Part shown: positions 1,031 to 11,315 of the stretch, one piece after another
Numbering within the stretch: position 1 is the first letter of the stretch
Layout: the number at the start of each line of letters is the position of its first letter
DNA from: Porticoccus sp.
GTDB taxonomy: Bacteria > Pseudomonadota > Gammaproteobacteria > Pseudomonadales > Porticoccaceae
NCBI GenBank assembly: GCA_011049795.1
Contig: DRHD01000219.1
Coordinates: 1-16,932 of the forward strand
DNA length: 16,932 nucleotides
Direction: 5' to 3'
The notes under the pieces: model-generated
The model's input: only the letters and a program-made list of their open reading frames with translations
The model's database searches: none
Told to the model about the DNA's origin: nothing
Program-made: the position numbers and the translations under genes

Positions 1031-2782
1031 ATGAACGTTCTTCCTAGTCATGGCATTGTAAAAGATGCCTTGAAAGATAGGTATGCAGTTTTTTTTGTAA
1101 TTTCTCTGTATGTATGCATGTATAGCGTCTCTTTGTTGGCACGAATCTCTGACGTAGAATTTATGGGAGTTGATGAGAGGTCCATCATCAACTCACTACA
1201 CGGCCTGTTCAGCGGCCCTCTATATAACATGAATGAGCAGTATCACTCGAAAGTATACGGCTGGACATACTTTTCGATTAACTTCATGGTTATTTCACCC
1301 TTAAAGTTATTACAGGTCGAAAGTTCGCTTGTTTATAATATTGTGATCCGGGGTGTTTTGTTTTTGATAGGAATGGCAGCTTCTATAACTTTTTACGTGA
1401 TATCAAGAAAGTTTTTTAATCGCATTATTGCACTACTTATCACGGTATATTTTTTGACCCATCCTGTCATTTCATACTTTTTTTTAAATATACACCCTGA
1501 AAGTACCGGTCTATTGTTCTATTTTTTTGGTTTGTATTGCTTGCTAGAATATTTTTCAACAAGCAATAAGCAGCTGTGTTTGTATATCTTTGGACTAATA
1601 TTTTTTTGGCTGTCTGCGTTGTCAAAACAACCGTTCGCAGTGCTTACAGTGTTTACATTTATTTTGTTTCCTGTTCACTACCTGAAATCAAGAAGATTGA
1701 CAATCAGTGCGTGCATAGGTCAGAAATCAACTTGGGTATTGTTAGCTCTGTCGATTGCTATAGCCTTTCTTATCCTACTCGTAGTGCATCCGTATTCAAT
1801 TCTGGATTTCCCGTCTTTCTTAGAGGGTCAGTTAAGGCCGCTCAGTCATTCGACTGCGCGCACACTTGAAGATGCGGCAGCTCTTTGGTATAGCCAACTC
1901 AAAAATCATCCAATAGTCTTAATTAATTTTTCTTTGGTAATTTTGTTACCCTTCGGCAGAATCTTGCGATTTCAGCCCCTTTTTATATATAGCCTTGTTG
2001 CCTCATGTGCAAGTACTTTGTTATTCATGTATATGCAAAAGCGGTTTGTCAATGTGAACTATTTATACCCTATTTATCCCTTATTTATATGGAATATTGC
2101 CTACGTTTTACAAGCACTTTTTTTGCGCCGTTTCTCTGAAAATCAGAGGCTTGTGGTTGGGTTTCTTGCCTTGCCTCTCGTTCTTTTATGTGGCCAAAAT
2201 ATAGTATTGAATACACTCGAGTCAGCTTACTCTGCCTATGCGAGATACCAAATGGACGGGAGCTCTACGAAAAACCAGAGCTATACTTTTATAAACTTCT
2301 TGCCGTCTGAGACCCGATTATTATACATGCCAACTGTTGCTGTCCCCGATAAGTATAAAGCGAACAGCTGTCACGTCTGGAGGAACTGCAACTCTGTTTC
2401 AGGAATGGCGGAGTTTGCACCAGAATACATATTTGTCAGCTGGGGGTATCAGCACTTCAATCCGGAAGTTTTGGACAACTACATGACGACTGAAAAGTAC
2501 GAATTGGTCCATGAATATCGTGGTGGTTCAACGCTGAATGATAAATGCGGCTTGCCCAAGTATAAGTTAAAACGACAGTTAGAAAAGAGGCAAAACAAGG
2601 ATCGAATGGATCATCGAAAAGAATTGCAGCGCAGTGAATATAGTGTTTTTGAGAACCTTTCATACCAAAGTAATCATCGCAGAATAGAGGATTGTCTGTC
2701 GCGGTTCGACGAGGTCTCCCGCATCAAAGGCTCAGGTAAGTATGTCGGACATGATATAGAAGTATGGAAGAGAGTTAATTGA
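1031..2782 (+). CDS. Membrane glycosyltransferase of the GT-C fold (ArnT/PMT-like)
   Basis: This 583-residue protein has roughly 12 predicted hydrophobic segments between residues 19 and 394, followed by a soluble tail of about 185 residues. An acidic pair sits just after the first membrane segment (GVDER, Asp48-Glu49). That is where GT-C enzymes such as ArnT and the PMTs carry their catalytic Asp or Glu in the first periplasmic loop. HPESTG at 155-160 is also loop-like. GT-C enzymes use polyprenyl-phosphate sugars and act on the periplasmic face. The ArnC/GtrB-like enzyme encoded next would be the natural donor-maker. The gene is AT-rich with many T-runs and its sequence is divergent, which suggests transfer. 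The ATG is preceded by AAAGG about 9 bases upstream. The last 40 residues are highly charged and unassigned. The acceptor is unknown. Confidence 0.72.
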   Translation: MNVLPSHGIVKDALKDRYAVFFVISLYVCMYSVSLLARISDVEFMGVDERSIINSLHGLFSGPLYNMNEQYHSKVYGWTYFSINFMVISPLKLLQVESSLVYNIVIRGVLFLIGMAASITFYVISRKFFNRIIALLITVYFLTHPVISYFFLNIHPESTGLLFYFFGLYCLLEYFSTSNKQLCLYIFGLIFFWLSALSKQPFAVLTVFTFILFPVHYLKSRRLTISACIGQKSTWVLLALSIAIAFLILLVVHPYSILDFPSFLEGQLRPLSHSTARTLEDAAALWYSQLKNHPIVLINFSLVILLPFGRILRFQPLFIYSLVASCASTLLFMYMQKRFVNVNYLYPIYPLFIWNIAYVLQALFLRRFSENQRLVVGFLALPLVLLCGQNIVLNTLESAYSAYARYQMDGSSTKNQSYTFINFLPSETRLLYMPTVAVPDKYKANSCHVWRNCNSVSGMAEFAPEYIFVSWGYQHFNPEVLDNYMTTEKYELVHEYRGGSTLNDKCGLPKYKLKRQLEKRQNKDRMDHRKELQRSEYSVFENLSYQSNHRRIEDCLSRFDEVSRIKGSGKYVGHDIEVWKRVN

Positions 2783-2855
2783 TAATAGTATCAGTCGGAA
2801 ATGCTTGTTTCTGTCTCGATCAATCGAACCCGGCAACTAGTGTTTGAGTAAAATT

Positions 2856-3776
2856 ATGAAAAAATACAGTGTAGTCATCCCCGTTTATAACAGTGAAGAA
2901 GTCATCTCCGAGACTGCCAGGCAAGTTCGTGACTTTTTTCTAGAAAAGGGCATGCAGTACGAAATCATTCTTGTTAATGACGGTAGTAGTGATAATAGTT
3001 GGGGCGTCATTTCAAAACTGGCAGCAGCGCACGCTGAGGTGGTAGCAATATCACTATTGAAAAACTATGGGCAGCACAATGCGAATCTCTGTGGCTTTAG
3101 GAAAGCTACTGGAGATTACATAATTACGATGGATGACGACTTACAGAATCCGCCTAATGAAATAGAAAAACTAATCGATACTGTGGGGGCGGAATACGAT
3201 CTTGTGATTGGACGCTTTAAAAGCAAACAACATTCTTTTTTTCGGCGTATAGGTAGCCGTTTTGTTGGATGGATTAATAGGAAGGTTTTTGATGTTGAAG
3301 ACAGTCTTGTTTTAACCAATTTCCGTATAATTCGACGAGATGTTGTGGATCGCGTTTGCCGTGATCATTCAGCTGCACCATATATTCCTGGACTAGTACT
3401 CAAATTTTCTTCGAATCGTTGCAATGTGTTAGTAAATCATCAGCCAAGGGGTTACGGTACTAGTAATTACACGTTGCGCAAAATTCTACGATTGGTCGCA
3501 ACAATTCTATTTAATCACTCTACAATTCCTTTGCGCTTCGGTGCGGTGTTTGGGTTTTCAGTTGCGGGGGTAAGTTTTTTTCTTGGCTTGTACTATTTAA
3601 TGCTCGCATTAGTCGATATTAGAAGCACTCCGGGGTGGTCAACTTTGGTGGTGTTGATTTCATTTTTCAACGGCATTCTAATCATGTTGCTGAGTATCAT
3701 TGGTGAGTATCTTGTTCGCGTACTGCGCGAGCAAGGGGCGGGGCAAAGCTATGAGATTAGTGAGATTGTGGAGTAG
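2856..3776 (+). CDS. Polyprenyl-phosphate glycosyltransferase, GT2 (ArnC/GtrB/DPM1-like)
   Basis: This GT2 enzyme probably transfers a sugar from a nucleotide donor to undecaprenyl phosphate on the cytoplasmic face. From the ATG at 2856 it is 306 residues. It shows VVIPVYN at the N-terminus, NDGSSDNSW at 41-49, the metal-binding MDDDLQNPP with Asp93-Asp95, and the GtrB/ArnC-type region RGYGTSNYTLRKIL at 198-211. Two C-terminal membrane segments follow (about 227-250 and 262-285), ending in GEYLVRVL as in this subfamily. A TTG at 2844 would add four residues. I prefer 2856 because a GAG lies 7 bases upstream and the family motif starts right after MKKYS. The stop overlaps the next GTG by one base, so the two are probably translationally coupled. 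Confidence 0.88.
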   Translation: MKKYSVVIPVYNSEEVISETARQVRDFFLEKGMQYEIILVNDGSSDNSWGVISKLAAAHAEVVAISLLKNYGQHNANLCGFRKATGDYIITMDDDLQNPPNEIEKLIDTVGAEYDLVIGRFKSKQHSFFRRIGSRFVGWINRKVFDVEDSLVLTNFRIIRRDVVDRVCRDHSAAPYIPGLVLKFSSNRCNVLVNHQPRGYGTSNYTLRKILRLVATILFNHSTIPLRFGAVFGFSVAGVSFFLGLYYLMLALVDIRSTPGWSTLVVLISFFNGILIMLLSIIGEYLVRVLREQGAGQSYEISEIVE

Positions 3777-4534
3777 TGAATAATATCTTCATTGTCGGCG
3801 CTCAGCGCTCCGGCACCACCTATCTCTATCATATTCTCAATAGCCATCCCCAGGTGACTATGGCTCAGCCTATTCGGCCCGAACCTAAGTTTTTTCTGGA
3901 TGAAAAGCAGTATGGCAATGGACGATCCTTCTATGAGGATAAATATTTTTCAAGTTATCCGCTAGAAACACGTTATCTTGGAGAAAAAAGCACTTCTTAT
4001 ATAGAGAGTTCTGCGGCGGCGCAGCGGATTCACGATTTTTATCCCGATGCTCGCGTGGTGATTATTCTGCGCGACCCAGTGCTGCGGGCATGGTCTAACT
4101 ATCGTTTCAGTGTTCAGAACGGCCTGGAATCGCTGGATTTTGAGAGCGCCATCGCAGCAGAGCGGGAGCGTATAAAAGACGCTGCTTTTGGCTCATCAGT
4201 TAACCCCTATGCTTATCGCCGCCGAGGCCAGTACATGGATTTCATAGAGGACTACCTCAAGGTTTTCGATAGCGGCCAGTTATATGTCGTGATTTTTGAG
4301 GAAATTGTCGGCAGTTTGACCGGTGTGCAAAGTTTGTATCGCTGGTTAGGCGTTGATAATGATTTTTCCCCAGCGGCGCTGGGCGAAGTTTTTAACCCCG
4401 CCGACAAGGAAGAGGTGGCACCCACTGCCGTTTTGCGCGACCTGGCCTTTGGTTATCAGCAATCATTGGAAAGGCTAGAAAAACATCTTGGTCGCCCTAT
4501 CAGTAACTGGCGCCGTAGCTGGGAGGCTCTGTGA
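3776..4534 (+). CDS. PAPS-dependent sulfotransferase (first of two)
   Basis: This 252-residue cytosolic sulfotransferase would move a sulfuryl group from PAPS to an acceptor, here probably a sugar or glycolipid intermediate. The 5'-phosphosulfate loop is GAQRSGTTYL at residues 8-17. PKFF follows (Lys38, a position often catalytic in heparan-type sulfotransferases). The 3'-phosphate site is IILRDPVLRAWSNYR, with Arg99 and Ser107. A GQYMDFIEDYL stretch further on is common in bacterial polysaccharide sulfotransferases. The GTG start overlaps the preceding stop (TAGTG) and has TGGAG just upstream. The stop overlaps the next GTG start. Substrate and position of sulfation cannot be read from the sequence. 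Confidence 0.88.
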   Translation: MNNIFIVGAQRSGTTYLYHILNSHPQVTMAQPIRPEPKFFLDEKQYGNGRSFYEDKYFSSYPLETRYLGEKSTSYIESSAAAQRIHDFYPDARVVIILRDPVLRAWSNYRFSVQNGLESLDFESAIAAERERIKDAAFGSSVNPYAYRRRGQYMDFIEDYLKVFDSGQLYVVIFEEIVGSLTGVQSLYRWLGVDNDFSPAALGEVFNPADKEEVAPTAVLRDLAFGYQQSLERLEKHLGRPISNWRRSWEAL

Positions 4535-4890
4535 TATCGAACCCTATTTTTGCTGTCACAGTCACGGTGATATTGGGGCTGATGAGTGCGGTTTCGCTGA
4601 AGACTGCATCATCTCAGCCAGAAGATTCATGGCAAATTATAAGCTTGCTTTTCTTTGCTGTACTGTTTGTAAACGGCTTGAGGTTTGTCATTTGGGGTTA
4701 TGTGCACAAACGACACCCGGTTAGCCTGAGCTATCCGCTCGGCAGTACCTTTTTTCCACTGGTTCTTCTGATAGGACATTTTATTTACGGTGAGCCGGTT
4801 AGCGCGCAAAAGCTGGTTGGAGCTGCCATCATTATGCTGGGTGTTGCAATGCTGGTTCTCAGCGAGAGGGGGGGGCATGTTTCGACTTAA
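4531..4890 (+). CDS. Small DMT/SMR-type membrane protein, ArnE/ArnF-like flippase subunit A
   Basis: This protein of 119 residues has four predicted membrane segments (about 5-24, 35-57, 67-87 and 92-111). A GEP motif at 87-89, before the last helix, is typical of half-size EamA/SMR proteins such as ArnE and ArnF. Those work as pairs to flip an undecaprenyl-phosphate amino sugar. The GTG start is supported by a strong GGGAGG at 4521-4526 and overlaps the upstream stop as GTGA. A second four-helix protein is encoded at 5437-5742, so a heterodimer is plausible. The 3' end contains a G8 tract and overlaps the acyltransferase gene by 14 bases. A drug-efflux role is possible from the family alone, but the context argues for lipid-linked sugar transport. 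Confidence 0.75.
   Translation: MISNPIFAVTVTVILGLMSAVSLKTASSQPEDSWQIISLLFFAVLFVNGLRFVIWGYVHKRHPVSLSYPLGSTFFPLVLLIGHFIYGEPVSAQKLVGAAIIMLGVAMLVLSERGGHVST
4868..4875 (+). repeat. G8 tract at the transporter/acyltransferase overlap
   Basis: Eight consecutive G lie inside the last codons of the transporter gene (Arg-Gly-Gly) and one base before the acyltransferase ATG at 4877, so they also fall in its ribosome-binding region. Removing one G would put the transporter frame directly into the acyltransferase frame at its Met. Confidence 0.9.
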
Positions 4891-5440
4891 ACAATTTTTG
4901 TACCGAAATCATTACGCTAAGAGCATGGCAAACAGTCTCTATGTCTACCTGATTTTTTTGTTTCATGCAGTTGTGAACTGGCTGCCGGGAGGGGTACGTG
5001 TTGCTTTTTTTAGGATCCTTTTACAACAATGTGGGAGGCACGTTTTTTTTGATCACAACATTTATATAAAGCTTCCTTGGTTAGTCTCGATTGGAGATTC
5101 AGTAGTACTTAATCGTGGTGTTGAGATATATAGTGACTTCTTTAGTAAATCGATGGTTCGAATTGGTTCTGGAGTCAGGCTGGCACCCAACGTTCAGATC
5201 CACGCATCTGGACATGAGCTTGATTCGGGAGAATACCTGCATCAAGGGGCAGAGGTGGTTATCGGCTCTGACGTTTGGGTTGGGGCTAGCGCAATTATTC
5301 TTTCAGGCGTTACCATCGGCGAGGGCTGTGTCGTTGCAGCCGGGAGTGTGGTGACTGAAAGTATTCCTCCCTATTCCTTAGCAGCGGGTGTGCCAGCGGT
5401 GGTCAAAAAATCCATTTCTGTTGTTGGCAATGAACTATGA
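4877..5440 (+). CDS. Hexapeptide-repeat (left-handed beta-helix) acyltransferase, WbbJ/WcaF-like
   Basis: This 187-residue enzyme probably transfers an acetyl or other acyl group from acyl-CoA to a sugar. After an N-terminal part with a hydrophobic stretch (about 22-36) come imperfect hexapeptide turns. These include IGSGVRLAPNVQIHASGHE (about 97-114, His109 and His113 being catalytic candidates), VIGSDVWVGASAIILSGV and IGEGCVVAAGSVVT. The closing IPPYSLAAGVPAVVKK is the usual end of this family. The frame is open back to 4790, but that would run through the transporter gene. The ATG at 4877 matches family length and has a G-rich leader. Next to wecE it could N-acylate the 4-amino group. WbbJ/WcaF-like relatives are O-acetyltransferases, so the site is open. 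Its stop overlaps the next ATG as ATGA. Confidence 0.85.
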   Translation: MFRLKQFLYRNHYAKSMANSLYVYLIFLFHAVVNWLPGGVRVAFFRILLQQCGRHVFFDHNIYIKLPWLVSIGDSVVLNRGVEIYSDFFSKSMVRIGSGVRLAPNVQIHASGHELDSGEYLHQGAEVVIGSDVWVGASAIILSGVTIGEGCVVAAGSVVTESIPPYSLAAGVPAVVKKSISVVGNEL

Positions 5441-5742
5441 CGATGCTTCCTTTGGCGCTGGCGATTGCTTCAACGGCAGGCGCGCAGATCCTATATAAAC
5501 TGTTTTTTTTGCGGAAGGGGAAAATCTATCTCGTAGGGGCTTTGGTATTATTTTGTTTAGCGCCGTTTATGAGTTACATAGCACTAAAACAATGGCCCTT
5601 GAGTACAGTCTACATGGCCACCGCACTGACCTATGTGTTGACGCTTATTTTAGCAAAATTTGTATTGGGTGAATCGATCAATCGCCGCAAGGCTCTGGCA
5701 ATTATTCTGATAGTTAGTGGCGTCGTCATCTTTAATTTTTAA
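5437..5742 (+). CDS. Small DMT/SMR-type membrane protein, ArnE/ArnF-like flippase subunit B
   Basis: This 101-residue protein has four predicted membrane segments (about 3-24, 30-49, 56-76 and 83-100). A GES motif at 78-80, before the last helix, occupies the same position as the GEP of the protein at 4531-4890. Helix 1 contains AGAQILYKLFF, reminiscent of the start of ArnE/SMR proteins. By family knowledge such proteins dimerise, and the pairing of two different short members suggests a heterodimeric flippase as in ArnE-ArnF. The pair is split by the acyltransferase gene, with coupled ATGA and overlapping junctions. The ATG at 5437 is preceded only by weak ribosome-binding sequence, so translation may depend on coupling to the acyltransferase. 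Confidence 0.75.
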   Translation: MTMLPLALAIASTAGAQILYKLFFLRKGKIYLVGALVLFCLAPFMSYIALKQWPLSTVYMATALTYVLTLILAKFVLGESINRRKALAIILIVSGVVIFNF

Positions 5743-5759
5743 GGGTTTACTGAATATTT

Positions 5760-6896
5760 ATGGATATCCGCTTTAATTTTCCTTATCAAGTTGGCTCCGA
5801 GGCTGACTATATCCGCGATGCTCTTGCGTGCGGGCGACTTGCCGGAGACGGCGCTTACACGAAAAAGTGTTCTGAGTTACTTGAGTCCTATTTGGGGACT
5901 GGCAAGGTATTATTGACGCACTCTTGCACAGCTGCGCTGGAAATGGCTGCTATCCTGGCCGATATCCAGCCCGGTGACGAAGTGATCATGCCTTCCTACA
6001 CTTTCGTCTCCACGGCAAATGCATTTGTGCTTAGGGGGGGGGTTCCTGTTTTCATTGATATTCGCCCTGACACCTTAAATATAAATGAACGCTTGATTGA
6101 GGCTGCAATCACACCGCGAACCAAAGCTATCGTGCCAGTTCACTATGCGGGAGTCGCCTGTGAGATGGATATCATCCTGGATATAGCGCAACGCCATGAT
6201 TTGCTTGTCATTGAGGATGCCGCTCAGGCCCTTGGCAGCAGTTATAACGGGCGCATGCTCGGTACTCTAGGGGACTTGGCAACCTTCAGTTTTCATGAGA
6301 CCAAGAACATTGTTTCTGGCGAGGGGGGGGCACTGGTTATTAACAATCCCCGCTTTGTCGAACGAGCAGAGATCATCCGCGAGAAGGGGACAAATCGATC
6401 TCAGTTTTTCCGCGGTGCGGTAGATAAATACACCTGGGTTGATGTGGGGTCATCCTATCTTCCCAGTGAGCTTGTGGCTGCATTTCTCTATGCTCAACTG
6501 CAGCATATTGACGAGATAAACGGTAAGCGAATGACGATTTGGCAGCAATATGCAGCCACCTTAAAAGGTTTGGCCAGTGAAGGGCTGATAACGCTCTCTT
6601 CTCTTCCGGTTGGCTGCACGCACAATGCCCATATGTTTTATCTTCTTGCGCGTACGAAAACAGAGCAAATTGAGTTGCTTGCCTATTTGAAGCAGCATGG
6701 GATCAATGCCGTTTTTCACTATATCCCCCTTCATGCCACCGACGCGGGATTGAGGTTTGGCAGAGTTGGTTCCGCAATGCCGGTGACTGAAGATCTGCCC
6801 TGGCGGTTGATCAGGCTACCAATTTATCCGGATCTGAGTAGCGCGGATGTCGTGAAAGTGTGTGGAAATCTCATTGGGGCGCTGAAGGGTGATTGA
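5760..6896 (+). CDS. wecE: dTDP-4-amino-4,6-dideoxygalactose transaminase (WecE/RffA)
   Basis: This PLP enzyme converts dTDP-4-keto-6-deoxy-D-glucose to dTDP-4-amino-4,6-dideoxy-D-galactose (dTDP-Fuc4N) with glutamate as amino donor. It has 378 residues, against about 376 in E. coli WecE. Visible motifs are THSCTAALEMAA (53-64), DEVIMPSYTFVSTANAF (73-89), VHYAGVACEMD (127-137), IEDAAQALGSSYNGR with Asp153 (151-165), and FHETKNIVSGEGGAL with Lys182 as the Schiff-base lysine. SSYLPSELVAAFLYAQL follows at 231-247. All are close to the WecE subfamily and unlike the FdtB-type enzyme at the left edge. Two long G tracts lie in the coding sequence. In other bacteria the product feeds enterobacterial common antigen. 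Here no wecD-type GNAT or wecF is seen, so another use of Fuc4N is likely. Confidence 0.9.
   Translation: MDIRFNFPYQVGSEADYIRDALACGRLAGDGAYTKKCSELLESYLGTGKVLLTHSCTAALEMAAILADIQPGDEVIMPSYTFVSTANAFVLRGGVPVFIDIRPDTLNINERLIEAAITPRTKAIVPVHYAGVACEMDIILDIAQRHDLLVIEDAAQALGSSYNGRMLGTLGDLATFSFHETKNIVSGEGGALVINNPRFVERAEIIREKGTNRSQFFRGAVDKYTWVDVGSSYLPSELVAAFLYAQLQHIDEINGKRMTIWQQYAATLKGLASEGLITLSSLPVGCTHNAHMFYLLARTKTEQIELLAYLKQHGINAVFHYIPLHATDAGLRFGRVGSAMPVTEDLPWRLIRLPIYPDLSSADVVKVCGNLIGALKGD
6034..6042 (+). repeat. G9 tract inside wecE
   Basis: Nine consecutive G encode part of Arg92-Gly93-Gly94-Val95. Any change of length not divisible by three would truncate the aminotransferase shortly afterwards. 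In the copy shown the frame is intact. Confidence 0.9.
6323..6330 (+). repeat. G8 tract inside wecE
   Basis: Eight consecutive G encode the end of Glu188, Gly189-Gly190 and the first base of Ala191, a few residues after the catalytic Lys182. It is the second long G tract in this gene and the third within about 1.5 kb. Confidence 0.9.
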
Positions 6897-7920: not shown

Positions 7921-9378
7921 ATGAGATTTGTAAAATATAGCTCCATGCGGTCAATGAGTGAGGCTGTTTCTGTCGCAGTAGATAAAGGTGATGTGGATTT
8001 ACCGTTACGATTAATCCACGATTTTGTAGAGCGTATCTTTACTGAGCCTCTCTGTGTCTCACAGGTTTTCGGTTCTAAAACGTTAGATGGTTTATGTCAG
8101 CGCATAGGTGAAGTTAATCTTGCAAAAATTAAACGAGAAATTGGAGATGCGGAATACAGTCAACCGGATGAGCTAATCTTTGTTTATATTGTCACTAAAC
8201 TGCAGAAGTCTGGGGGGCACACGCGAGTTATTGAAGACTTTATCAAGGCCCGGCCAGAGGGACAGCATGTCATATTATCGACAGAATTGGCTGGGAGATC
8301 AGATTCTAACTATCTGTTGGAAGGATTTGAAAAAAAAACCAACATAGTCTTCGAGCAAGCGCCGAAGGTAAATTTTCAAAAACGACTAACGTGGCTGCAA
8401 AAGCGTCTACTTAAACTCCATCCGGGAAGAGTCTACCTGTTCAATCACCATCAAGATAGCGTTGCTGTGGCTGCAATCCGGCCCGAAATGAAACTCAATG
8501 CCAGCTTTTATCATCATGGTGACCACCATTTGTGTTTGGGGGTGTATTTGTCGCATCTTGAACATATTGACCCCCATCCCATGGGATATCACAATTGCCG
8601 AGATGAGTTAGGTATCAAAAATATTTATATACCGCTTATGGTTGACGATAAAGGAGATCGCCCTGCCGATTTGGGTTTTTTTCACGATGGAAAGCTCACC
8701 ACCTGTACGGCAGCAAGATCAAACAAGGTCGAAATACCTTATTTCGTAAGCTACTGTGAGATGGTACCTAAACTTTTGAAGGCTACGGGCGGAAAACATA
8801 TCCATATTGGGCGGCTATCGCCTTGGGCGCGTTTAAAAATTCGGCGGGGGCTGAAACATTACGGTATACAGGATGATCGGTTCATTTATACACCTTGGGT
8901 TCCCAGCGTCTGGAAGGCTCTGCACGATTATCGAGTTGACTTGTATGTCGCATCTTTTCCGTATGGAGGTGGGCTTACCTTGATTGAAGCAATGGGCGCA
9001 GGTATCTCGGTAGCCCTACATAGGCATATTTTTTCTCGTATTCTAAGTGGGGTAGATCTTGCCTATCCGGGGGCTTTTAGCTGGCGGCAGCCTGGTGAGC
9101 TGTTGAATTATTGTGTTTCGTTAACTTCTGAAGATCTTGAAAAATCTGGCAAACTAGCCCGTATTCAATATGAAAAATTTCATTCTGGGGAGAATCTACA
9201 AAGCATACTTAATGATACAGACCATGGTGGCTCTAGCCCCAATGATTCAGAAGATACGTTCTCTATAGAAAGTGATGAATGGGCTCTTTGGGTAGAGAGC
9301 CAATTAAATATTAGAAGGCTGCTGTCAAAAGCAGCCTACCGTACATTCCGTAAGCTAAGGTCTCGATTGCGGGCCTGA
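7921..9378 (+). CDS. GT-B fold glycosyltransferase, GT4-like, with an unusual N-terminal extension
   Basis: This 485-residue protein appears to be a cytosolic retaining glycosyltransferase. The first Rossmann half starts with LIFVYIVTKLQKSGGHTRVI (85-104), where the SGGHTR loop is the donor or acceptor loop of GT-B enzymes. The second half carries IHIGRLSPWARLKI (294-307), FIYTPWVPS (321-329) and FPYGGGLTLIEAMGAGISV (346-364), in which Glu356 fits the EX7E-type nucleotide-sugar motif region. About 84 residues precede the fold and about 55 follow it without a recognised domain. It is AT-rich like the genes around it. The ATG at 7921 has AGAG about 8 bases upstream. A second ATG at 7945 is possible. 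The transferred sugar is not predictable. Confidence 0.65.
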   Translation: MRFVKYSSMRSMSEAVSVAVDKGDVDLPLRLIHDFVERIFTEPLCVSQVFGSKTLDGLCQRIGEVNLAKIKREIGDAEYSQPDELIFVYIVTKLQKSGGHTRVIEDFIKARPEGQHVILSTELAGRSDSNYLLEGFEKKTNIVFEQAPKVNFQKRLTWLQKRLLKLHPGRVYLFNHHQDSVAVAAIRPEMKLNASFYHHGDHHLCLGVYLSHLEHIDPHPMGYHNCRDELGIKNIYIPLMVDDKGDRPADLGFFHDGKLTTCTAARSNKVEIPYFVSYCEMVPKLLKATGGKHIHIGRLSPWARLKIRRGLKHYGIQDDRFIYTPWVPSVWKALHDYRVDLYVASFPYGGGLTLIEAMGAGISVALHRHIFSRILSGVDLAYPGAFSWRQPGELLNYCVSLTSEDLEKSGKLARIQYEKFHSGENLQSILNDTDHGGSSPNDSEDTFSIESDEWALWVESQLNIRRLLSKAAYRTFRKLRSRLRA

Positions 9379-9532: not shown

Positions 9533-10426
9533 ATGAGCACTGATATTTCAACAATTATTGTTAATTACAACGCAGGTACATTTTTACGTAAATGTGTTGA
9601 TTCTGTGCTGGCCTCTCCTTTAGAAATTGAAATTATTGTTGTTGATAATGCATCTACAGACAAAAGCCTTGAAACTCTACCCTCATCACCTCATTTAACA
9701 GTTATTAAGAATAGCTTAAATGTAGGTTTCTCAGCTGGGTGTAATGTTGGTTTAAAAGTTGCCAGAGCAGATCGTGTTTTATTTTTGAATCCAGATTGTA
9801 GCTTTTCATCTGAAACCATCACGTATTTGACAAGTTATTTGGACACTCATGACCACGTTGGAATGGTTGGAGGACTACTAGTTAACCCAGATGGAACTGA
9901 GCAAGGTGGTGGGCGCAGAGCTATACCAACCCCCGGGAGAACATTGGTAAGGGCATTGGGTTTAACTCGATTTTCGAACCGCTGGCCGAACTTGTTCAAA
10001 GACTTCCATTTACACAAACAGCCGTTACCCACTGAACCTATTGAGGTTGAAGCTATCTCAGGGGCATGCATGCTGATAAAACGGAAGGCTTTAGACGATG
10101 TAGGGCTTTGGGATGAAGGGTATTTTTTACATTGTGAGGATTTAGACTATTGCATGCGTTTTCGCAAAAATGGTTGGAAAATAGTCTTTGTACCCACAGC
10201 AAGGATCATGCATGAACACGGGGCTTGTAGCAAAAGTCGCCCTATATTTGTTGAATGGCACAAGCATAAAGGAATGGTACGATTTTACCGGAAGTTTTTT
10301 CGTCGTCAGTACTCAACTTTAACGTGGGGAGCAGTCATCTTTGGCATATGGTTCCGGTTTTCGTTGGTTTCAACCTACCATACAGCTAAACTTGCCCTAG
10401 CCAAGATTGGGGTAAGGCGTGACTGA
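9533..10426 (+). CDS. GT2 glycosyltransferase, WbbL/rhamnosyltransferase-like
   Basis: This 297-residue GT-A enzyme is of the WbbL type. These typically transfer rhamnose or another deoxy sugar onto a lipid-linked O-antigen intermediate on the cytoplasmic face. Motifs are STIIVNYNAGTFL at the N-terminus, VVDNASTDKSL (36-46), NVGFSAGCNVGL (63-74) and FLNPDC (84-89, the DXD-equivalent). GACMLIKRKALDDVGLWDE and FLHCEDLDYCMRFRKNGW follow, with the catalytic acidic cluster EDLDY. A hydrophobic stretch near the C-terminus (WGAVIFGIWFRF) may anchor it to the membrane. The ATG is preceded by AAAGGTAGAAAGTAG. The gene ends with an 8-base overlap with the next gene, so the two are co-translated. The donor sugar is an inference. 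Confidence 0.85.
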   Translation: MSTDISTIIVNYNAGTFLRKCVDSVLASPLEIEIIVVDNASTDKSLETLPSSPHLTVIKNSLNVGFSAGCNVGLKVARADRVLFLNPDCSFSSETITYLTSYLDTHDHVGMVGGLLVNPDGTEQGGGRRAIPTPGRTLVRALGLTRFSNRWPNLFKDFHLHKQPLPTEPIEVEAISGACMLIKRKALDDVGLWDEGYFLHCEDLDYCMRFRKNGWKIVFVPTARIMHEHGACSKSRPIFVEWHKHKGMVRFYRKFFRRQYSTLTWGAVIFGIWFRFSLVSTYHTAKLALAKIGVRRD

Positions 10427-11315
10427 TCGCCATGTTGGTATTCTAGGTGCTACCAGCCTGGTAGGACATTTATTATTGCCCCCATTGGTTCAGGCTCAGT
10501 ACCATGTTGTGGCCTATACTAGGCAGGCATGCCTGGGTAAAGATGACACTGTGGAATGGCGGCAGTTACCCCCATCAGTGGATAATGCTTCATTTCAGCC
10601 TACGGTCCCTCCAGTAGAAGACAAATTACCGCTTTGGATTTGTGCTGCGCCAATTTGGGTATTACCTGAATACTTTTCTATGATGGAGGCTCAGGGTGTT
10701 CGTCGCGTAGTCGTGCTGTCTTCCACCAGTCGTTACACCAAGGGTGACTCATCAAATGCTGAAGAGCAATCTGTTGCAAATCGTTTGGCAGAAGCTGAAA
10801 CACTCGTAAAAGTTTGGGCTGAAAAACACGGTGTAGAATGGATTATTTTACGACCCACCTTAATTTATGGTCTTGGACGCGATAAAAATATTGCCGAGAT
10901 AGCACGTTTTATTAGGAAATTTGGTTTTTTTCCATTATTTGGTAAAGCTCTAGGCTTACGACAACCTGTCCATGCTAATGATGTTGCCTATGCATGTGTT
11001 TCTGCGCTCAATACGACCAATGGAATAAATCGTTCATATAATATATCTGGAGGCGAAACGCTTGCTTACCGCGAGATGGTATTGAGAATATTTAAGGTGC
11101 TTGGTAAGCGCCCTTGCGTTATTTCAGTCCCATTAACTTTTTTCAGATTGGCTGTTATGTGTTTGAGGTTATTACCTAGATATAGGCATTGGTCGGTTGC
11201 GATGGCTGAACGAATGAACCAGGATCTTGCTTTTGACCATACTGAAGCAGCTCAGGACATCGCCTATAACGCTAGAACATTTGCTCCGACTAAAACAGAT
11301 GTGGGAGCGCCTTAA
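10419..11315 (+). CDS. Atypical SDR / NAD-dependent epimerase-like protein
   Basis: This 298-residue protein has an N-terminal nucleotide-binding Rossmann motif, VGILGATSLVGHLLL (6-20). The core strand VVVLSSTSRYTKGD follows (97-110), then WIILRPTLIYGLGRDKNI (141-158) and PVHANDVAYACV (183-194), the layout of extended or atypical SDRs. The active-site YXXXK is not seen where expected: the corresponding helix reads SVANRLAEAETLV. It may therefore bind NAD(P) without classical SDR chemistry, or use another residue. Relatives annotated as nucleotide-sugar epimerases often sit beside WbbL- and WbpL-like genes in O-antigen loci, and the overlap with the GT2 gene fits this. The GTG at 10419 has GGGGTAAGG upstream with somewhat tight spacing. 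Its function is not established. Confidence 0.72.
   Translation: MTDRHVGILGATSLVGHLLLPPLVQAQYHVVAYTRQACLGKDDTVEWRQLPPSVDNASFQPTVPPVEDKLPLWICAAPIWVLPEYFSMMEAQGVRRVVVLSSTSRYTKGDSSNAEEQSVANRLAEAETLVKVWAEKHGVEWIILRPTLIYGLGRDKNIAEIARFIRKFGFFPLFGKALGLRQPVHANDVAYACVSALNTTNGINRSYNISGGETLAYREMVLRIFKVLGKRPCVISVPLTFFRLAVMCLRLLPRYRHWSVAMAERMNQDLAFDHTEAAQDIAYNARTFAPTKTDVGAP

Follow-up and report, generated by a model that had tools for sequence, protein, structure and literature searches.

The seven-gene cassette and its gene order

The window analyzed here, that is, the whole stretch of 16,932 nucleotides from Porticoccus sp. (contig DRHD01000219.1), contains a cassette of seven genes, all located on the + strand and arranged head to tail between positions 1031 and 6896. 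Their order, GT-C glycosyltransferase, GT2 glycosyltransferase, sulfotransferase (ST1), small transporter (SMR1), hexapeptide (left-handed beta-helix, LbH) acetyltransferase, second small transporter (SMR2), and WecE, is the one that an earlier note on this DNA had given. The genes and their profile matches (3'-phosphoadenosine 5'-phosphosulfate is abbreviated PAPS; pLDDT is the predicted local distance difference test) are as follows.

1031-2782, + strand: GT-C-fold glycosyltransferase; PMT_2, 16.8 bits (cut-off, 26.1); AlphaFold model with a pLDDT of 81.3
2844-3776, + strand: GT2, ArnC/GtrB-like, with C-terminal hydrophobic segments; start at TTG 2844 or ATG 2856; Glycos_transf_2, 107.8 bits
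3776-4534, + strand: ST1, PAPS-type sulfotransferase of the heparan N-/3-O-sulfotransferase fold group; Sulfotransfer_3, 78.4 bits (cut-off, 27)
4531-4890, + strand: SMR1, four-helix EamA/ArnE-like small transporter; EamA, 33.7 bits (cut-off, 28.2)
4877-5440, + strand: hexapeptide (LbH) acetyltransferase; Hexapep, above cut-off
5437-5742, + strand: SMR2, second small transporter, proposed partner of SMR1; EamA, 34.7 bits (cut-off, 28.2)
5760-6896, + strand: WecE, dTDP-4-amino-4,6-dideoxygalactose transaminase; NF008687, 588 bits (cut-off, 375), and TIGR02379, 562.6 bits (cut-off, 434.85)

While 61 bases separate the end of the GT-C gene from GT2, the following genes overlap by 1 (GT2/ST1), 4 (ST1/SMR1), 14 (SMR1/LbH), and 4 (LbH/SMR2) bases, and a gap of only 17 bases leads from SMR2 to wecE, so that GT2 through wecE look like a single translationally coupled unit. 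The same succession, GT2-ST1-SMR1-LbH-SMR2-WecE, also occurs in a Marinobacter metagenome-assembled genome (locus L001), and variants of it in five more loci (L002, L014, L017, L026, and L065); this arrangement therefore goes beyond chance.

Family assignment of the cassette proteins

The product of the last gene is, by its scores, a true member of the WecE family with the corresponding predicted activity. It aligns with the WecE structure 4piw along almost its full length (E = 5e-139), including the region of the ETKN motif, whose lysine we take to be the residue binding pyridoxal phosphate (PLP). For GT2, the best NCBIfam model is ArnC (NF007986; 190.7 bits, under the cut-off of 529), and a profile built from an alignment of the window protein and 21 of 120 listed homologues has its top structural matches in ArnC (9hwj, 9bhc, and 8vxh) and GtrB (5ekp). 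A hydropathy scan found three hydrophobic segments in this protein and mostly two or three in its relatives. By this kinship, GT2 is predicted to be a polyprenyl-phosphate sugar synthase with membrane helices.

The Pfam score, motif conservation, and fold of ST1 all point to a predicted PAPS-dependent sulfotransferase. Its structural model (pLDDT, 90.8) matches the bacterial structure 3rnl, NDST1, and 3-OST, and NDST1 is its closest characterized relative by sequence among solved structures. The GAQR, PEP (Glu36), EK, and RxPxxRAxSNY positions, part of which we presume to bind PAPS, are invariant in 13 aligned sequences, and the ST1 profile aligns the region of the PEP glutamate with a loop of NDST1. 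A loop glutamate acts as the base in NST1 and HS3ST1, according to PMC11625862.

The two small transporters belong to separate EamA-type subfamilies (14% identity). SMR1 is nearest to ArnE (35.4 bits; cut-off, 92), followed by ArnF (25.9 bits; cut-off, 99), and SMR2 likewise scores below the cut-offs of ArnF (22.0 bits) and ArnE (20.5 bits). All six loci with SMR1, the window included, also have SMR2.

For the hexapeptide enzyme we preferred the ATG at 4877 over the start at 4790 given in the list of open reading frames, and the L001 relative is likewise 187 amino acids long. Its best NCBIfam model is WcaF (81.1 bits), followed by galactoside and maltose O-acetyltransferases, all below cut-off; these models also lead, again below cut-off, for its counterparts in L001, L026, and L065, and the best PDB match is maltose O-acetyltransferase. 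The enzyme is therefore probably O-acetylating, as predicted from these similarities.

The GT-C model yielded 19 Foldseek matches at an E value of at most 0.1, all of them GT-C enzymes or complexes containing one, among them STT3, ALG9, the undecaprenyl phosphate-bound ArnT structure 5f15 (E = 1.5e-3), Pmt4, AftD, AftA, AglB, and PglB; the modeled protein is thus predicted to have the GT-C fold. A protein search returned 21 homologues out of 7996 scored candidates. Asp48 is invariant in 21 aligned sequences, from which the chimaera-like homologue P0006 was excluded, and lies in a segment (residues 40 to 48) modeled at low confidence.

The GT2-ST1 pair recurs in distant phyla

We scanned one genome per species for GT2, which gave at least 80 loci, and added genome searches around some of them as well as longer stretches. 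Counting identical GT2 proteins once and leaving out loci L081 to L110, this gave 107 distinct GT2 rows, window included, whose neighboring genes were called by six-frame profile matches. We drew the line of the GT2 subfamily at 400 bits, a value set after the scores were seen, with profiles built partly from these same loci. Of 52 rows at or above this line, 49 had at least 900 bases downstream, and 43 of these 49, from five phyla, carry ST1 directly downstream on the same strand, at a distance of 11 to 87 bases by profile match. The sister subfamily below the line comprises 55 rows, and in none of the 52 with enough sequence does ST1 follow GT2. As 28 of the 45 ST1 rows are actinobacterial, we also give thinned counts: 17/23 versus 0/49 at 70% identity and 11/17 versus 0/24 at 60%.

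The GT2 tree places all ST1 rows but one, 44 of 45, in a group of 48 rows and the remaining one (L138) beside L022; the sister group of 56 rows contains none. Two rows just above the line, L025 and L028 (404 and 402 bits), group with the sister subfamily. Several deep forks are moderately supported (80/77, 84/99), and the ST1 label needs six changes on this tree. The distances of GT2 and ST1 co-vary across the 17 non-actinobacterial loci (rho = 0.52; 0 of 2000 permutations as high).

The tightest-linked partner of GT2 is thus ST1, ahead of the GT-C gene and the SMR pair, and the core of the cassette recurs in distant bacterial phyla rather than being a one-off. Judged by these profile matches, the GT2-ST1 pair is the signature of the system. 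The GT-C and SMR genes were rejected for this role, since the loci have different GT-C families and only six of them contain the SMR pair. Of the seven families whose co-occurrence the earlier note had suggested looking for, GT2, ST1, and WecE recur together. The situation that the note had named as speaking against its proposal, GT2 homologues always lying in unrelated contexts, was not encountered.

GT2 is found in 26 of 149 Nocardioidaceae genomes. In four Chloroflexota loci (L019, L020, L024, and L140), GT2-ST1 is preceded by a protein of 318 to 331 residues, assigned to the glyoxalase family in L020; the proteins of L019, L020, and L024 form one cluster, while that of L140 was grouped with them by size only. 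Viral contigs contributed 30 loci, which contain weak or partial matches except for one 36% relative (L081). Among plasmid records, 569 contain a match, each below 60% identity, and 18 of the 20 listed are annotated as arnC.

WecE points to dTDP-Fuc4N as the probable sugar source

WecE lies within 6.5 kb of GT2 in 32 of 39 subfamily rows and 36 of 45 sister rows with at least 5 kb downstream, and a WecE of at least 42% identity was present in 17 of 20 searched genomes holding GT2 loci. In the genomes of L018, L019, L020, L024, L140, and L022, none was seen in the locus and WecE is found elsewhere; the contigs of L018 and L019 end early (1.6 kb downstream for L019). We therefore rejected the presence of WecE inside the locus as a requirement, given that the Chloroflexota loci L019, L020, L024, and L140 carry it elsewhere in the genome. 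In the Chloroflexota draw, such a WecE occurs in 15 of 201 genomes. With two shared genomes removed, it is present in 6 of the 7 genomes that have GT2, two of which carry wecE within the locus itself, versus 13 of 199 others (Fisher test, 1.8e-6).

All nine WecE proteins tested pass NF008687 (window, L001, L003, L014, L017, L023, L026, L065, and L151), and that of L151 stays below the second model, TIGR02379 (395.5 bits; cut-off, 434.85). The fetched Nocardioidaceae loci combine GT2, ST1, and WecE, with a methyltransferase nearby in many and a dTDP-glucose 4,6-dehydratase in some. In two loci of this family (L150 and L153), the gene behind the cassette encodes a true dTDP-glucose 4,6-dehydratase (TIGR01181, 430.7 and 434 bits; cut-off, 365.1). 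The enrichment of WecE in GT2 genomes, together with the GT2-ST1-WecE arrangement in Nocardioidaceae, supports dTDP-linked 4-amino-4,6-dideoxygalactose (dTDP-Fuc4N) as the predicted sugar source.

ST1 and N-acylating enzymes tend to exclude each other

Next, we counted three profile types of N-acylating enzymes (GNAT, WbqC, and ATP-grasp) within a same-strand stretch reaching 4 kb upstream and 4.5 kb downstream, using only rows whose sequence continues for at least 2.5 kb downstream. Such enzymes occur in 35 of 54 rows without ST1 versus 1 of 36 rows with ST1 (p = 4.8e-10), and the difference persists after thinning at 70% (1/16 ST1 rows versus 33/51 others; p = 3e-5) and 60% identity (0/10 versus 15/28; p = 0.003). 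Among the ST1 loci counted, only L151 has a GNAT, which lies upstream of GT2 and matches in two stretches. Methyltransferases are found in 18 of 54 rows without and 19 of 36 rows with ST1; for the hexapeptide enzyme, the corresponding numbers are 1 of 54 and 4 of 36. In the window, no WecD-type GNAT profile match was found near GT2.

Between GT2 and wecE, sister loci often hold a GNAT (L039, L055, and L051) or a WbqC protein (L042 and L040); an ATP-grasp ligase is found there in L028, a methyltransferase in L048, and an EamA-type protein below cut-off in L034. WbqC and ATP-grasp proteins would be expected to act on the amino group. WbqC profile matches were also seen near sister-type GT2 and WecE in L036, L037, L069, L073, and L079, besides L042 and L040, for which Pfam was checked; WbqC proteins may contribute to the tailoring of Fuc4N. 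Similarly, ATP-grasp profile matches lie near sister GT2 genes in L028 (LAL_C2 type), L139, L074, and L063, with WecE near three of them and none within 6.5 kb in L063; this suggests an amino-acid-linked Fuc4N in these loci.

In sum, ST1 and N-acylating enzymes appear mutually exclusive by tendency, and methyl- or O-acetyl-type enzymes tend to accompany ST1, a pattern that agrees, if indirectly, with either N-sulfation or a sulfate added to a sugar whose amine is free. One could speculate that ST1 is an N-sulfotransferase that replaces the N-acyltransferase of the sister loci and converts undecaprenyl-phosphate-Fuc4N to a sulfamate, such that N-sulfated lipid-carried sugars would exist in several phyla and be flipped by SMR proteins in some. 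We hold this idea tentatively: it draws support from the rarity of N-acylating enzymes in ST1 loci, from NDST1 as the closest characterized relative, and from the O-acetylating appearance of the acetyltransferase. Against it, 3-O-sulfotransferases are almost as close to ST1, and the ST1 rows may stem from few replacement events.

An equally tentative alternative keeps the same system and assigns the groups differently, with the hexapeptide enzyme N-acetylating the sugar to Fuc4NAc and ST1 adding an O-sulfate. In enterobacterial common antigen (ECA), Fuc4N is known to end up as Fuc4NAc, the hexapeptide gene lies inside the operon, and the ST1 fold is about equally near 3-O- and N-sulfotransferases. 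However, the hexapeptide enzyme is nearest to O-acetyltransferases and occurs in only 4 of the 36 ST1 loci counted, so that most ST1 loci would be left without an N-acylating enzyme of the types sought. Moreover, L015, a subfamily member without ST1, has a NeuD/PglB/VioB-type sugar acetyltransferase adjoining wecE instead (TIGR03570, 179.4 bits; cut-off, 160.8).

A proposed pathway for a sulfated amino sugar

Taken together, we consider it probable that the cassette encodes a periplasmic glycosylation system of the three-component type that handles a sulfated amino sugar. WecE, as its family membership predicts, would make dTDP-Fuc4N, and GT2, by its kinship with ArnC and GtrB, would transfer Fuc4N to undecaprenyl phosphate at the cytoplasmic face. 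ST1 may then sulfate the lipid-linked Fuc4N or its nucleotide precursor, on the amino group or a hydroxyl. The near-fixed position of ST1 behind GT2 points to these substrates, and because PAPS is cytosolic, sulfation would precede the flip. The hexapeptide enzyme would O-acetylate the sugar, a step that O-methylation may replace in other loci. The SMR1/SMR2 pair would flip the modified lipid-linked sugar, by analogy with ArnE/ArnF, which are held to flip the undecaprenyl phosphate derivative of 4-amino-4-deoxy-L-arabinose (Ara4N). Finally, the GT-C enzyme would pass the sugar to an acceptor on the outside, such as a surface glycan; the polysaccharide of the surrounding locus is one candidate.

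The predicted transporters SMR1 and SMR2 are present as a pair in the window and five other loci and absent from most ST1 loci. Among the loci, the GT-C family of the window recurs only in L002, and other GT-C types lie above cut-off near the core elsewhere: PMT_2 in L003 and L026, GT87 in L012, and a PIG-U-like protein in L017. Large membrane proteins in L001, L014, L010, L011, and L154 gave no Pfam match. As the GT-C types near the core differ, these data suggest a shared donor cassette that is matched to different acceptors through varying GT-C enzymes. The core occurs in phyla without lipid A (Nocardioides and Chloroflexi), which makes this molecule an unlikely general acceptor.

Several observations weigh against this proposal. 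Six of the 49 subfamily loci (L010, L015, L021, L022, L025, and L028) lack ST1. The SMR pair accompanies only 6 of 45 ST1 rows, some of which are cut short, and Nocardioides and Chloroflexi must use a different flippase. GT-C genes differ between loci, with no conserved acceptor visible. No close WecE was found in 3 of the 20 searched genomes, namely G1462 (L006; best, 35%), G1463 (L012; 33%), and G1468 (L021; no match). RmlB-like genes, which we had expected more widely, lie beside the cassette in 6 of the 34 ST1 rows that extend far enough downstream versus 7 of 51 rows without ST1, and the window is a fragment, with rmlA, rmlB, and the PAPS genes outside view. Finally, GT2 is rare: it was found in 3 of 369 genomes of the Gammaproteobacteria draw, seed included, one of which (G256, L139) is of the sister type without ST1, and in 1/395, 1/151, 2/251, and 1/147 genomes of four other draws, seeds included.

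The surrounding locus

The rest of the window looks like part of a surface-polysaccharide-type locus, with the following genes beside the cassette.

1-675: partial DegT-type aminotransferase, upstream of the cassette; best score with PseC, below cut-off, and not WecE by score
6996-7874: second sulfotransferase, directly after wecE; Sulfotransfer_3, 69 bits, and only 19 bits against the ST1 profile
7921-9378: 485-residue protein; weak glycosyltransferase match, no family above cut-off
9533-10426: further GT2, downstream of the cassette
10419-11315: presumed nucleotide-sugar short-chain dehydrogenase/reductase (SDR)-like gene, named from its sequence

The partial aminotransferase hints that the locus involves a second amino sugar, and the second sulfotransferase may mean that the surrounding glycan carries more than one sulfate. 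The 485-residue protein is 51% identical to a protein of L002 (1830-3275) that adjoins the same GT-C family and GT2, and may help to build the acceptor of the GT-C family shared by these two loci. The listed genes end with pgi, whose identity was borne out by a protein search for phosphoglucose isomerase, and a gene that we take to be uvrA. Among the matches listed in this search, none from a named organism was close, the first being Motiliproteus sp. at 56%.

Alternative readings of the locus

One alternative is a conventional Wzx/Wzy repeat-unit locus: GT2 would attach Fuc4N to an undecaprenyl-diphosphate oligosaccharide, and the sulfotransferase would modify the repeat unit. The resemblance to a surface polysaccharide locus, with a second sulfotransferase and more glycosyltransferases, speaks for it, as does a Wzx-type gene (Polysacc_synt_3) in two Chloroflexota loci (L003 and L006). 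However, the best matches of the GT2 profile are the polyprenyl-phosphate sugar synthases ArnC and GtrB, the SMR pair and the GT-C gene would be superfluous, and GT2-ST1 recurs in otherwise dissimilar loci, so that we regard this explanation as quite unlikely. The same polysaccharide-like surroundings argue against protein O-glycosylation, in which a PMT-like GT-C enzyme would place the sugar on exported proteins. STT3 and Pmt4 are among the Foldseek matches, and PMT_2 is above cut-off in some cassette neighbors (L003 and L026), but GT-C folds are common to enzymes with lipid, polysaccharide, and protein acceptors, and we judge this route improbable.

Least credible, in our view very unlikely, is an Arn-like modification of lipid A that confers resistance to cationic peptides. 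While the kinds of parts are indeed Arn-like (an aminotransferase, an ArnC-like GT2, two small transporters, and a GT-C transferase), GT2 is found in the Nocardioidaceae genomes mentioned above and in Chloroflexota, both of which lack lipid A. In addition, a sulfate brings negative charge, the opposite of Ara4N, and the GT-C gene product does not qualify under any ArnT model of Pfam or NCBIfam.

Relation to known systems

The proposed system resembles three-component systems such as GtrABC and the GT136 pentofuranose systems (PMC11127046), in which a polyprenyl-phosphate sugar synthase and a flippase work together with a GT-C enzyme on the outer side. The cassette has predicted counterparts of the synthase and the GT-C enzyme and, in the window and five other loci, a putative flippase. 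It differs in that the predicted donor is a sulfated amino sugar, with a sulfotransferase and an acetyl- or methyltransferase built in; the main text of PMC11127046 contains no word starting with "sulf".

With the Arn system (ArnBCADTEF), the cassette shares the PLP aminotransferase, the ArnC-like GT2, for which ArnC structures are the top relatives, the two small transporters, and the GT-C transferase. Unlike Arn, it has WecE in place of ArnB and an added sulfotransferase and occurs beyond bacteria with lipid A; ArnA and ArnD models found no match among the window genes scanned. Strict Arn membership was rejected, as the cut-offs of ArnC, ArnE, and ArnF were not reached and ArnB (NF008658) scored 214.3 bits against a cut-off of 631. 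The Arn-like character claimed by the earlier note thus holds for the kinds of parts and not for family membership. Its further proposal of a lipid-phosphate-linked Fuc4N-type sugar, with sulfation, paired small transporters, and GT-C transfer outside, is supported by comparative genomics. As for the acylation it envisaged, the acyltransferase is closest to O-acetyltransferases (WcaF, LacA, and Maa), which speaks for a probably O-acetylated product and not for Fuc4NAc, the N-acetylated form known from ECA.

As in the wecE/wecD pathway of ECA, a true WecE would supply dTDP-Fuc4N. Here, however, Fuc4N is predicted to reach undecaprenyl phosphate via an ArnC-like enzyme and not lipid III, and the window has no WecD-type GNAT match. 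ST1 shares its fold, PAPS motifs, and the glutamate in the aligned active-site loop with heparan sulfate N-/3-O-sulfotransferases and bacterial 3rnl. It differs in having no deacetylase domain and in its genetic linkage to a lipid-sugar synthase. We found no description of the cassette in the open-access literature, whose coverage leaves out most subscription papers. Nor was it described in the titles and abstract openings of the papers listed on Fuc4NAc with sulfate, N-sulfated amino sugars, Fuc4N with a GT-C enzyme, or sulfated polymers of Nocardioides.

If our reading is correct, the cassette would be a transferable donor module for lipid-carried, sulfated 4-amino-4,6-dideoxygalactose, in which the GT-C enzyme is swapped according to the acceptor. 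Three-component glycosylation would thereby extend to sulfated amino sugars, with sulfation taking place before the flip, on a lipid-linked monosaccharide or its precursor. The GT2-ST1 pair would also serve as a genetic marker of an unrecognized sulfated glycan in cultured bacteria, among them Nocardioides, Flammeovirga, and Colwellia. Should ST1 be an N-sulfotransferase, it would offer a compact bacterial source of N-sulfation chemistry.

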